Source: Williamsia maris (GTDB taxonomy: Bacteria > Actinomycetota > Actinomycetes > Mycobacteriales > Mycobacteriaceae). Taken from it: a stretch of 64,000 bases of DNA. Below, piece after piece: positions 17,925 through 27,369 of this stretch (its first letter is position 1; each line of letters begins with the position of its first letter). The stretch is from NCBI RefSeq assembly GCF_024171815.1, contig NZ_JAMTCJ010000003.1, positions 620,001-684,000 of the forward strand. Reading direction: 5' to 3'. The position numbers and the translations under genes are program-made. A model generated the notes under the pieces. That model searched no databases. It was given only the letters and a program-made list of their open reading frames with translations, and was not told the DNA's origin.

Positions 17925-17934
17925 CTTAACCTAG

Positions 17935-18008
17935 TAGCGGGGACAGGATTTGAACCTGCGACCTCTGGGTTATGAGCCCAGCGAGCTACCGAGCTGCTCC
18001 ACCCCGCG
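17935..18008 (-). tRNA. Initiator tRNA-fMet (CAT anticodon)
   Basis: 74 nt without CCA. Acceptor GCGGGG/CCCCGC, D arm GAGCAGCTCGGTAGCTC, anticodon arm CTGGGCTCATAACCCAG, T arm with GGTTCAAATCC. Initiator features: an unpaired first base (C1 opposite U72) and three consecutive G:C pairs at the base of the anticodon stem (GGG/CCC). The genome continues with CTA after A73, so CCA is added after transcription. Followed by a strong terminator. Confidence 0.95.
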
Positions 18009-18117
18009 TCGGGTGAACACAACGTTACACAGAGGGCCTCGATGTAGGCAAATCGATCGCTGACCAGCAACGACACCGGTGAACAGCGTCGCCGCCTCGG
18101 CCCCGGAGACGAGAACA

Positions 18118-22999: not shown

Positions 23000-23026
23000 A
23001 GTAGAGGTCGGTGTCGCCGGTCCCGT

Positions 23027-24043
23027 CTACGCGCGCGGTCGGAGGACGTTGACCTGCCCGGGACGCGACAGTGACGGGGTGTGGATGGGCTTGCCCTTCG
23101 CGTTGCGGATGATCTGTCCCTCCAGCGCGACCAGGCATGCGGCGGCCGGGCTCTGGTAGATCTTCGTCAGCACCGGCGTCAGTGACGCGGCGAACTGACC
23201 CTCGGCGGAGATGAACTGTTCGCGGTACGGGCCGTAGAACGGCAGGATCGCCTTGAGGATCACCGCAGTGGCGTCGGAGATGCGATTCAGGATCGGGGTG
23301 ATCCAGGGCAGGTTCTGGTGGATCACCGGTTCGAGCTCGGCGAGCACCGGCCCGAACAACTGCAGCGCCGGTTGCATGGCGGGACCGAGGGCGAAGACCT
23401 CCGACGAGAACGACCCGAACATCGGCGCCAGTTCGACGATCGACGACAGGCCCCCGGACCTGTCCGGCTTCGGGATGCCGGGGCACGCCGGCTGCTCGGC
23501 GATCGGTGCGGTGGCGAATCCCGCTGCGGCGCCGCCGGTTCCGTTGCCGTTGATGGCGACCGACCCGCCGGGCGACGACCCGGTTGCGCCCGGGGTGATC
23601 GGCGTCGCCGGCGAGGCGCCGGGTGCCGCCGGGGTGCCGGGCAGTGTGACGCCCGCACCCGGACTGATGGCGACCGCGGCGGCCGGGGCGTCGGCAGCGG
23701 GGGCTGCGGGGGCGGAGGCTTCGGGAGCGGAGGCTTCGGGAGCGGTCGGTTTCGGCTGCGCGACGGCGGGACCGGCCGGTCCGGGTGTCACCGGGGCGAC
23801 CGCGGCAGCGGCGCGGTCGGCGGCCACCGGCACGGTCACCGCGACCTGGGTCCGGCCCGCGTCGGCGTACCAGGTTGCCGCCACCACCACCGCGAGGACG
23901 GTCAGCCCGGACACCGCCCGAAGGACTCCCACCCCCACCGACCGACGCCCACGGGGCGGGGTCACCGCGGGGAACTCGTCGGTGGCGGGTGCCTCGGGTT
24001 CGGGTGCGTCGAGTTCGGGGGTCTCATCGAAAGCTGGTGACAC
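23027..24043 (-). CDS. Membrane-anchored Ala/Pro-rich envelope protein, unknown
   Basis: 338 aa, family not recognised. The first 35 residues are acidic and cytoplasmic. One helix (about 38-58, VGVLRAVSGLTVLAVVVAATWY) anchors it, followed by a 120-residue Ala/Pro/Gly-rich linker with the repeat PEASA, typical of cell-wall-spanning segments. A helical extracytoplasmic domain (about 185-338) has SGGLSSIVELAPMFGSFSSEVFALGPAMQPALQLFGPVLAELEPV and two cysteines. Fourth gene of the operon that starts at 27131; 75 bp from the lipoprotein gene and 27 bp before the protease gene. Anchor, linker and domain recall the other proteins of the operon, although the domain differs. Confidence 0.75.
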   Translation of the reverse strand: MSPAFDETPELDAPEPEAPATDEFPAVTPPRGRRSVGVGVLRAVSGLTVLAVVVAATWYADAGRTQVAVTVPVAADRAAAAVAPVTPGPAGPAVAQPKPTAPEASAPEASAPAAPAADAPAAAVAISPGAGVTLPGTPAAPGASPATPITPGATGSSPGGSVAINGNGTGGAAAGFATAPIAEQPACPGIPKPDRSGGLSSIVELAPMFGSFSSEVFALGPAMQPALQLFGPVLAELEPVIHQNLPWITPILNRISDATAVILKAILPFYGPYREQFISAEGQFAASLTPVLTKIYQSPAAACLVALEGQIIRNAKGKPIHTPSLSRPGQVNVLRPRA

Positions 24044-24118
24044 GGCGGTGCCTCTCGTGGATACGCGGGTGGCGCGTGGTCGGTGGTCGGGACGTCACGG
24101 GATCGGGGCGCCGGAGGA

Positions 24119-24967
24119 TCACGAGGTCGGCGGCGCGGTGGACGGCGCCGCGGCGGACGGTTCGAAGGCACCCTCGAGGTGCCAGACCCCGGTGAACCCG
24201 TTGAAGGGTCCGCCGACGATGAGGCTGGTCCACTGAAGTTCGTAGGTCTTCGCCGAACTGTCGTAGGTCCCGGTCGCCGACGGACCCTGCACCGGTGCGG
24301 CGGCGGACTGGCCGAGCCACTTCTGCGATACGTAGTCCCACGCCTGCTCGGCCTGCTCGGCCCCGGGCACCTTGGGTCCGGCCTTGGCCGCGACCTTGGG
24401 TGCGCCCTGGTTGAACTCCTGGTTGTTCCAGGAGGCTGCCCACGCGGTGAGGTTCGCGGTGAGCTTGCCGCCGTCGTTCTGAACGGTCGGTGCGACGACG
24501 GGGTTGCGTGTCTGCGGGTCGACGGCGTTGGTCGAGACACCGAACCCCACGCCGAAGAACCTGGTGGGCTTCATGATCGACCCGGCCAACGAGTTGCCGT
24601 TGTCGAAACCGGGTGTCGGCTCGGACTGGAAGGCGCCGGTGCGCAGCCCGCCCTCGGTGCCCGGCGAGAGCAGCGTCACCGACCCGCCCTGGACCGGTGA
24701 GTCACCGTTGGGCATGTACGGGCCGTCCTCGACGGTGCCGCCGGGCTGGACCATCTTGAACCAGGACCCGGTGATGGTGTCGCCGTCGGCTTTTCCGGCC
24801 TCGAGTCGCAGCAGGCCGGTCAGCGCACCCGACTCCGACGCTGCGGCGTCGTCGGACCCGCACGCGGTCAGACCACCGGTGAGCAGTCCCAGTGCCAGCA
24901 CGGCGCCGACGATCGACCGCAGGCACGATCGGAGTGGGTGTGTGGTCGTCGTTCGGTCTGCGTTCAT
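24119..24967 (-). CDS. Lipoprotein, paralogue of the surface protein at 26.1-27.1 kb
   Basis: Predicted lipoprotein of 282 aa. The signal peptide carries the lipobox LTAC (Cys36), so the protein is lipid-anchored outside the membrane. Residues 45-185 align with the protein at 26094-27131. Shared stations are GSWFKM.. / GSFFRM.., PTRFFGVGFG / PVKFYGVGFA, TNxxDPQT, LTANLTAW / LTGNLSAF, NQEFNQGAPK / NKQVFNQGAPK, and near the end WTSLIVGGPFNGFTGVWHLEG / WTSQIVGGPFNNFTGLWHLAG. The insertion QAEQAWDYVSQKWLGQS (about 205-220) is specific to this copy. Function unknown. ATG 24967. Confidence 0.8.
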   Translation of the reverse strand: MNADRTTTTHPLRSCLRSIVGAVLALGLLTGGLTACGSDDAAASESGALTGLLRLEAGKADGDTITGSWFKMVQPGGTVEDGPYMPNGDSPVQGGSVTLLSPGTEGGLRTGAFQSEPTPGFDNGNSLAGSIMKPTRFFGVGFGVSTNAVDPQTRNPVVAPTVQNDGGKLTANLTAWAASWNNQEFNQGAPKVAAKAGPKVPGAEQAEQAWDYVSQKWLGQSAAAPVQGPSATGTYDSSAKTYELQWTSLIVGGPFNGFTGVWHLEGAFEPSAAAPSTAPPTS

Positions 24968-25011
24968 CGAATTGTCCTTCGTACCTGCATGTGTCGATCG
25001 ATCTGGAAAGG

Positions 25012-26097
25012 TCATGCGGTCAGGGCCCGTCCCCGACGTGCGCCGGCGGTGCCGGCCCCGACAAGGACCACCGCCACCCCACCCGCGCCGATCAGCACCC
25101 ACGGCAGGGCCGCGAAGGTGCCGAACCCGAGGGACTCGGTGCGGGAGTTCAGCCGGGCGACTCCGGTGAAGTTCGAGATGTTGTCGTTCATGGTCCCGAT
25201 GAGGCTGGCGAAGTCCGACGACATCAGCTGCCATCGGTTGCTGAGGTCCGAGACCACCGCGACGTCGGCGGCGACCTGCGCCCGCTGCGGCGACGTCGCC
25301 GAGTCGCGGTGCACATCGGCGAGGTATCGGCTGTCGATCTCCCCGACCGCCCCCACCAGCACCACGAAGTACCCCTGGACGTCGCGCACCTTCTGCTTGG
25401 TCAGCACAGATTCGAATCGGGTGACCAGCGGACCAGCGGCGTCTGCGTCCGACACCATCGGGGTCAGCAGCGGCGTCGCGAGGAGCGCGACCGCGGCCAG
25501 CGAGCCGATGACGGCGGCACCGATCGGTCGCCTGCCCGCACGGGTGCGGCGCCATCCCCAGATGCCGGTGGCGAACAACACGAGACCGAATCCGAGTGGG
25601 ATGAACGGGATGGCGTCGAGCGGTTGCAGCTGCGCCAGCCGTCGATAATCGTCTCGGGCACCGTCGATCTCGGTGATCATCGCGGTCATGTCGGCGTCGA
25701 TCGACGGGTACCGCTGTTGGAACTGGCCGATCTGTCGGTACTGCGCCGCGTCGGTTCCCAGGGCGGTGTCGACACGGGTGGTCGCCGCCCGCACGGCGTC
25801 GAGGCGCTGCAGGTCGGCGGTGAACCCGTGGAGGCGCGCAGTGGTCATGTACGGGGCGAAGTCGGCGATCATCGCCCTGCCCTGCGCCGCGGGATAGAAC
25901 ATCCCGCCCGCCAGCGGCGCCACCGCCAGGATGAGCCCCAGCAGCGTCGTCGCGATCCACGGCCAACGTCGACCGACCGGCCGGGCGGCGCCGGACGAGC
26001 CGCTCGCGGAACGGGTCTCGACACCCTCGGGTGAGCCCGGGTAGGCAGGCAGCGCGTCATCGGGCGGCCGCTGCCCGGACGCGCGCACGACGCTCAC
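25012..26097 (-). CDS. Four-helix membrane protein with two outer helical domains, unknown
   Basis: 361 aa from the GTG at 26097, which overlaps the stop of the upstream gene (GTGA). Membrane helices at about residues 46-66, 162-182, 190-211 and 329-349. Two extracytoplasmic segments (67-161 and 212-328) are mostly helical and without cysteine, the layout of four-helix sensor or bundle domains. After helix 2 comes a basic loop GWRRTRAGRRP and the C-terminus is GARRGRALTA, so no cytoplasmic signalling domain is present. Family not recognised. It is encoded between two paralogous surface proteins and probably works with them as a membrane scaffold. Confidence 0.75.
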   Translation of the reverse strand: MSVVRASGQRPPDDALPAYPGSPEGVETRSASGSSGAARPVGRRWPWIATTLLGLILAVAPLAGGMFYPAAQGRAMIADFAPYMTTARLHGFTADLQRLDAVRAATTRVDTALGTDAAQYRQIGQFQQRYPSIDADMTAMITEIDGARDDYRRLAQLQPLDAIPFIPLGFGLVLFATGIWGWRRTRAGRRPIGAAVIGSLAAVALLATPLLTPMVSDADAAGPLVTRFESVLTKQKVRDVQGYFVVLVGAVGEIDSRYLADVHRDSATSPQRAQVAADVAVVSDLSNRWQLMSSDFASLIGTMNDNISNFTGVARLNSRTESLGFGTFAALPWVLIGAGGVAVVLVGAGTAGARRGRALTA

Positions 26098-27131
26098 TCG
26101 CCGCGGCGCCTGCGGACCAGGCGATCGGCGTTGGTCAGCACAGCGGTGGCGATCGCGGTGACGGCGACGAGCAGCGGCAGCAACCACCGGGTTTGTCCGT
26201 CGGGGTCCTCGACGCGGATGGCCTGGGCGGTCAGGGCCGGATCTCCCGAGGCGGACACGGTCTGCGCCTGCGCGGGCGCCGGTTGGGCCGCCGCGGCGGG
26301 TGGCCGTCCCGGCGCGGGTGCGGCCGAGGGTGCGGGCGCACCCGGTGACGCGGCGGGGGCCGCCGGCGCTGCGGCCGCGGGGGCGCCTGCGGCCGGTGTC
26401 CCCGACAGACCGGACCCCTTGTAGGTGCCCGCGAGGTGCCACAGGCCGGTGAAGTTGTTGAACGGGCCGCCGACGATCTGGCTGGTCCACTCGATGAAGT
26501 AGGCGCCGGTGGACCGGTCGATGGTCCCGCGCACGGCCGACGTCTTGCCGGGCAGCGCTCCACCGGGCTTCGGCGCGCCCTGGTTGAACACCTGCTTGTT
26601 CCAGGTCACCCCGAACGCGCTGAGATTGCCGGTCAGGGCTGTCCCGTCGGCGCGCAGCTGGGGGTCAGCGGTGCCCTGGCCGGTCTGGGGATCGGTGCCG
26701 TTGGTGGCCGTCGCGAAGCCGACGCCGTAGAACTTCACGGGCCGGGTGACGCTGCCCGACAGTGCGTTGCCGCTGCCGTCGAAGGCCTGCGCGGGCTGCG
26801 GTTGCAGACTGCCGCTGGTCAGGCCGCCATCGCTACCCGCCGACAGCGGGGTGACCGTCTTGTCACCGCATCCGGAGTCGCTGTTGGACAGGAACGGGCC
26901 CGATGTGCTGCCCGCGGGCAGGATCATGCGGAAGAACGAGCCGGTCACCGAGTTGCCCGAGCACACTCCCCCGTCGATGCCGAACAGCCCGTTCAGTGGT
27001 GTCGGTGCGGCCGAGGCCGGGGCCGACACCGTCCCCGACGCGACCACGATCATCGCCGTCGTCGCCAGCAGCGCTCCCGCACCCCGCACCCGTGATCCCC
27101 ACCTCGACCTGCGCACACCCGACACCTTCAC
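26094..27131 (-). CDS. Secreted, C-terminally anchored surface protein, unknown family
   Basis: 345 aa from GTG 27131 (GGGAG 6 nt upstream; an upstream in-frame TTG at 27146 is possible). Signal peptide of about 45 residues ending PASA-A. A globular domain with two cysteines (GGVCSGNSVTGSFF; SGCGDK) and closing motif WTSQIVGGPFNNFTGLWHLAG spans about 50-235. An 80-residue Ala/Pro-rich linker follows, then a membrane helix (about 318-336) and the basic end RLVRRRRGE, so it is held on the outer face of the membrane. Paralogue of the lipoprotein at 24119-24967. First gene of the operon; 237 bp upstream is free for its promoter. Confidence 0.8.
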   Translation of the reverse strand: MKVSGVRRSRWGSRVRGAGALLATTAMIVVASGTVSAPASAAPTPLNGLFGIDGGVCSGNSVTGSFFRMILPAGSTSGPFLSNSDSGCGDKTVTPLSAGSDGGLTSGSLQPQPAQAFDGSGNALSGSVTRPVKFYGVGFATATNGTDPQTGQGTADPQLRADGTALTGNLSAFGVTWNKQVFNQGAPKPGGALPGKTSAVRGTIDRSTGAYFIEWTSQIVGGPFNNFTGLWHLAGTYKGSGLSGTPAAGAPAAAAPAAPAASPGAPAPSAAPAPGRPPAAAAQPAPAQAQTVSASGDPALTAQAIRVEDPDGQTRWLLPLLVAVTAIATAVLTNADRLVRRRRGE

Positions 27132-27369
27132 GTTCGACTCCCACAACTCGGTGCGAGCGATATCTCGCGCCGCATGATCGAGCGAAATCTACGCAGAAGG
27201 GCGAAAGCGGAGAACGTTTGTGGTCAGGGCGGGTATAAGTCCGCCTGCACACATCCGCGGGCCGACGGGACGATCGCCGACCGCGCCACCGCTCCGCTGA
27301 CAGCGAAACCTCCTCCTCGGACGCGCTGCAGGCCGCATCGGACGCATCGACGCCGGTACCGTGGACGCC

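Follow-up and report, generated by a model that had tools for sequence, protein, structure and literature searches.

A cassette of four genes, here called A to D, lies on the minus strand of a 64,000-nt stretch of the Williamsia maris genome (contig NZ_JAMTCJ010000003.1; below, the window, by which positions are numbered) and almost certainly forms a conserved unit of the cell envelope. We propose, with a probability of about 0.38, that the cassette handles a lipid or other hydrophobic ligand, a reading that draws on the predicted folds of its products. A first-pass annotation, made from the sequence alone, had described an uncharacterised envelope operon here. Its four reading frames are open where it placed them (Table 1), and both the coupling of A to B by GTGA, in which the A stop overlaps the B start, and the 27-bp spacing from D to a PDZ/Lon protease gene are borne out; B and C are 44 bp apart and C and D 75 bp. 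The host genome is of 4.93 Mb, and its closest named relatives are Williamsia, with a C protein 91% identical at one locus (L005). A promoter and terminator scan gave no signal exceeding that of shuffled sequences.

Our search with C retained 27 loci out of 46 candidate stretches, with titles naming Williamsia, Gordonia, Antrihabitans, Aldersonia, Tsukamurella, Mycobacteroides and Mycobacterium sp. At all 27, where C is present by construction, A, B and D stand beside it in the same order and on the same strand, which agrees with the earlier picture of one conserved unit in which two outer proteins related to each other are joined by a membrane partner and by a further protein with an anchor of its own. 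Counting also the Tsukamurella tyrosinosolvens record L036, A and B overlap at 26 of 28 loci and B and C at 27 of 28, although gap counts in the relatives are approximate because gene starts there were chosen by script. That record (NZ_LR134461.1) is labelled a plasmid, carries ftsY along with the cassette, and may be a chromosomal piece.

Co-inheritance was tallied per genome on even samples of genomes. The A/C domain was found in 40 of the 401 genomes of a family-wide sample, the window's own included. B and D were then sought in 39 of them, and also in 31 genomes negative for A/C (20 from the family-wide sample and 11 from a phylum sample); each was found in 38 of the 39 and in none of the 31. 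The exception, G512 (L085, 7572-9124), has A alone, followed by an ABC-2-like permease gene, with no B or D match genome-wide. In G214, counted among the 38, B, C and D are reduced to fragments that keep their original order (L035, 1124-2228), a decayed copy of the cassette.

The paralogy of A and C is real. In alignment A1 (A from the window and 22 of 28 loci, C from the window and 24 of 28 loci), each of the 25 C rows shares 40-49% identity with the window A domain, and 45 columns are invariant across the 48 sequences. The motif WNxQxFNxGxPKP and the GxFxxFxGxW block are mostly retained even in distant genomes. The A gene of Aldersonia sp. NBC_00410 (L014, 5968-6988) was excluded from A1, being split over two frames by a frameshift or sequencing error; G331 also shows gene A as two pieces.

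Profile checks of the shared domain and of the other products upheld the earlier statement that no named family is recognisable: NCBIfam (window proteins only), Pfam, PHROGs, PADLOC and PDB sequences gave no convincing match for A-D. An AlphaFold2 (AF2) model of the A domain, built on the 48 sequences, has a mean predicted local distance difference test score (pLDDT) of 90.2 and is all beta except for one three-residue helix. Among 993 aligned chains its best structural matches were BcnB (score 7.2), YceI (6.8) and BcnA (6.8), then a Pseudomonas aeruginosa antibiotic-sequestering protein (6.6) and ChtA (5.4), with lower scores for photosystem II chain O (at most 5.3), a Bacteroides protein (5.2), HtaB (4.9) and LpqH (4.8); every score is below 8. 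No sequence match was found between A/C and LpqH, the mycobacterial 19 kDa lipoprotein.

These matches bring in two other functions. The high rank of BcnA and BcnB, together with the genetic pairing of BcnA with a membrane protein described in PMC9113575, would fit removal of oxidised lipids as done in Gram-negative bacteria by BcnA with the cytochrome b561 LcoA. However, B does not resemble a cytochrome b561 and offers no conserved His able to hold haem (the best column has 11 of 35); we regard this role as very improbable. A/C show no Pfam link to YceI/BcnA (PF04264) in the window proteins or in 22 diverse domains, and no profile link, a profile of 13 YceI sequences giving an hhalign probability of 0.1%. 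The window's own genome has three YceI matches outside the cassette. The second function is haem or iron capture as by the surface proteins HtaA and ChtA; ChtA and HtaB are among the fold matches. Here A/C differ from the HtaA/HtaB/ChtA family (PF04213) in lacking a profile link (hhalign probability 0.5%, against three HtaA sequences only), a Pfam HtaA match in the window proteins or the 22 diverse domains, and any invariant His or Tyr. The best columns have His in 19 of 22 and Tyr in 14 of 22; the former is the His of WHL, and its imperfect conservation counts against a fixed haem ligand at that position. Reading through the neighbours listed brought up no haem-import gene, no search having been aimed at such genes. 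Haem capture thus appears improbable.

Signal peptides and transmembrane segments (TMs) of A-D were assigned by hydropathy. As first annotated, A carries a putative signal peptide at its N-terminus and a TM near its C-terminus, and C has the lipobox LTAC, with Cys36. The tail of A continues with RRRR and has no LPXTG-like sortase signal. A Cys matching a permissive lipobox pattern occurs in 28 of 28 C orthologues. The C-terminal TM is missing in eight of 28 A orthologues, all Tsukamurella, and likewise from the A protein of genus g82 (L080). Judged by sequence, then, C is a lipoprotein and A is of variable attachment, anchored in some lineages and apparently free in others. The phylum sample (396 genomes) gave A/C profile matches in the window's own genome and in G644 and G739, both from other families. 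One A-like protein of G644 has two tandem domains and a C-terminal LAFTG-type signal, its gene overlapping a sortase gene (PF04203, E 1.2e-26); a second, also of two domains, ends in LPNTG. The earlier suggestion of two binding proteins on different anchors therefore stands in the window but does not extend to the Tsukamurella A proteins or to the two sortase-type proteins of G644.

Related domains on different anchors and sortase-type relatives are also what one might see in a structural or adhesive surface complex, in which A and C would attach to one another or to a polymer outside the cell, B would be no more than a membrane scaffold and no small ligand would be carried; the ligand that we propose for A and C is a putative one. 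Yet the long motifs, WNxQxFNxGxPKP and the GGPFNxFTGxW block, are kept across families to a degree that we would not expect of an adhesive surface, and in Tsukamurella the A proteins have no C-terminal anchor. We find such a complex rather unlikely.

B has the four TMs and two outer helical segments originally read from its sequence, and it is an internal duplication: its two halves compare by hhalign with a probability of 99.9 and a score of 181, whereas none of 60 column-shuffled controls scored above 16. In a structure comparison of B, TTYH entries take ranks 1-8 and 11. The order TM-helices-TM-TM-helices-TM resembles that read for TM2-TM5 of TTYH1-3, and B comes together with possible carrier proteins on the outside, much as TTYH2 does with apolipoprotein E (APOE). 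A/C are beta proteins, whereas APOE is not. There are further differences. B has four TMs and no counterpart of TM1, whereas TTYH proteins, according to PMC8361169, have five TMs with a peripheral TM1; the same paper describes conserved extracellular disulfides, whereas B is without them, window B having no Cys at all. B is evidently an internal duplication. It is also bacterial, whereas PMC8327215 reports Tweety as first found in eukaryotes. Nor is there a sequence match: no Tweety family was listed for eight B-family proteins against Pfam (E <= 10), and no Tweety/TTYH chain for profiles A2 (the window and 26 loci) and A6 against PDB sequences (E <= 10). In Pfam searches with 35 B members, 42 families reached E <= 1 in at least one member. 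Among the 25 families listed, the SPW repeat (12 members, best 2.5e-5; short of the gathering cut-off in four rows examined) and DUF7541 (two members, best 6.3e-5) came first and were taken to reflect TM composition.

D had been called a membrane-anchored Ala/Pro-rich protein. It does have one TM, but there is more to it than that: the C-terminal part shows conservation, and on either side of it is a Cys (187 and 303) shared by all 19 sequences of alignment A3 (the window and 18 loci). Several D starts in relatives are probably too long. An NCBIfam GltJ match (E 0.0013, far below cut-off) was set aside, covering residues 9-150, which are mostly Ala/Pro-rich; the sole result from PHROGs and PADLOC was a weak tape-measure match (E 0.0011).

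Table 1. Positions of the cassette genes and their parts in the window
Feature	Position	Strand	Basis
Gene A: secreted protein, 345 aa, GTG start; signal peptide, beta domain, Ala-Pro linker, TM, RRRR tail	26094..27131	-	reading frame, hydropathy, orthologues
Domain of A/C type in A (residues 42-238, approximately)	26418..27008	-	alignment and AF2 beta model
C-terminal TM of A, residues 317-335	26127..26183	-	hydropathy
Gene B: 4-TM protein, 361 aa, two helical hairpins outside the TMs	25012..26097	-	reading frame, overlap with A, hydropathy
First repeat unit of B (residues 44-186): TM, helical hairpin, TM	25540..25968	-	hhalign comparison
Second repeat unit of B (residues 192-352), a homologue of the first	25042..25524	-	hhalign comparison
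Gene C: lipoprotein, 282 aa; A/C-type domain with inserted segment	24119..24967	-	reading frame, alignment
Lipobox LTAC of C (Cys36)	24860..24871	-	hydropathy/sequence; lipobox-like Cys in orthologues
A/C-type domain of C, about residues 47-271	24155..24829	-	alignment
Gene D: 338 aa; single TM, Ala/Pro linker, conserved C-terminal domain bracketed by Cys	23027..24043	-	reading frame, alignment, hydropathy
TM of D, residues 36-54	23882..23938	-	hydropathy
Conserved stretch of D between two invariant Cys, 187-303	23135..23485	-	alignment
Block absent from same-genus genome G356 (L149)	23019..27291		alignment of both sides

The cassette is gained or lost as a block. In G356, which lacks it, the aligned ends lie about 8 bp apart, and the sequence on either side matches the window at about 92% identity. 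A zincin gene was located in 11 genomes, and in the five of these that were fetched (G356, G330, G301, G618 and G591) it is adjacent to the PDZ/Lon gene, in keeping with the earlier view that the cassette interrupts an established gene order; G618 and G591 have the cassette at another place. The empty site and this adjacency together argue for gain or loss as a unit, but the ends show only a 7-bp direct and a 10-bp inverted match, so no insertion mechanism is proposed. Separately, a 102-bp segment of the window (17930-18031), possibly a tRNA gene, is 98% identical to G591, far above its flanks.

The PDZ/Lon protease, once suggested as a processing partner, does not travel with the cassette. 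Within flanks of at most 8 kb (shorter in L013 and L014, where the contig ends), the protease gene adjoins the cassette in five of 27 loci, all Williamsia, and the 201-aa, UPF0182 and zincin genes are likewise near it only in these five. The protease is present without the cassette in G356, G330 and G301, and it keeps its place next to the zincin gene in genomes that lack the cassette or have it elsewhere.

A different kind of neighbour raises the possibility that A-D are accessory subunits helping an ABC-2-type exporter (of the ATP-binding cassette, ABC, class) to move a substrate across the envelope. In L081, L084 and L088, D is followed by an ATPase and an ABC2_membrane_4-like permease (below the Pfam cut-off), and Tsukamurella L036 and L021 have an ABC-domain protein; the B proteins of these three loci and of Tsukamurella form one clade with support of 1.00. 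The two Gordonia types, L016/L017 and L084/L088 (Gordonia inferred for the latter), fall in separate clades of the B tree. At L105 (8284-13425), a B relative is followed by genes for an ABC ATPase and an FtsX-type permease. Outside the clade, however, a similar permease was not found in 13 of 14 searched cassette genomes, nor in G644 or G739, and the 14th, G421, gave only a weak match on another contig; the reach of this query is short, since it missed the Tsukamurella form in three of three genomes. We judge an accessory role quite unlikely.

Beyond the family, B stands beside A/C-type genes in G644 and G739, where the D profile found no match. B-type proteins occur in 17 of the 396 phylum-sample genomes, the window's own included; for the 14 with B but no A/C match, the loci fetched from 10 showed no A/C-type domain. 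Lipid-linked genes neighbour B at two such B-only loci (L106, L108). In one genus a single-unit B protein is next to a myo-inositol-phosphate-synthase-like gene (L106, 8109-8591; L111, 7265-7795; L112, 8125-8709); at L106 that domain was confirmed, and genes for a CDP-alcohol phosphatidyltransferase and a glycosyltransferase are close by. In G644 (L076/L077), the double-domain A/C proteins are near TusA/DsrE/Hdr-like and lipoate-binding-protein-like genes resembling a sulfur-oxidation cluster; gene names there come from reading the open reading frames, and the GCV_H, Rieske and Fer4 domains from a domain search. Sulfur-metabolism-like genes also occur among the neighbours of B at the B-only loci, so gene context is only a weak vote for lipids.

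We favour handling of a hydrophobic ligand because two moderate fold matches agree: the same gene set combines a beta fold like that of carriers with a membrane fold like that of a lipid-transfer protein. The A/C domain would hold the ligand, for which a membrane lipid or glycolipid is the likeliest candidate, and the outer helices of B would serve as a docking hub passing it between membrane and carrier, like TTYH2 with APOE. C, held by its lipid anchor, would act near B, and A would reach further out; D may be a scaffold or capture part, so far found only in the window's family. One clade has an ABC-2-type transporter in addition. A bolder proposal, which we consider unlikely, is that B is a bacterial counterpart, perhaps an ancestor, of Tweety and prominin through duplication of a TM-hairpin-TM unit (found alone in other actinobacteria), and that A/C are lipocalin-like carriers in lipid transfer of the TTYH2-APOE type. 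The literature matches listed, which cover subscription papers in part, include no report of A-D proteins or of a bacterial Tweety protein.

Four families without a convincing Pfam or NCBIfam match are thus encoded by genes that nevertheless co-occur almost always in the searched genomes. If the lipid reading is right, they would by analogy pair a carrier with a docking membrane protein of a kind known from animals. This would be an envelope lipid route not described before in Williamsia, Gordonia, Tsukamurella, Mycobacteroides and, in part, actinobacteria of other families, and, should the link to Tweety also hold, Tweety proteins would gain a bacterial counterpart in which lipid transfer is open to genetic testing.
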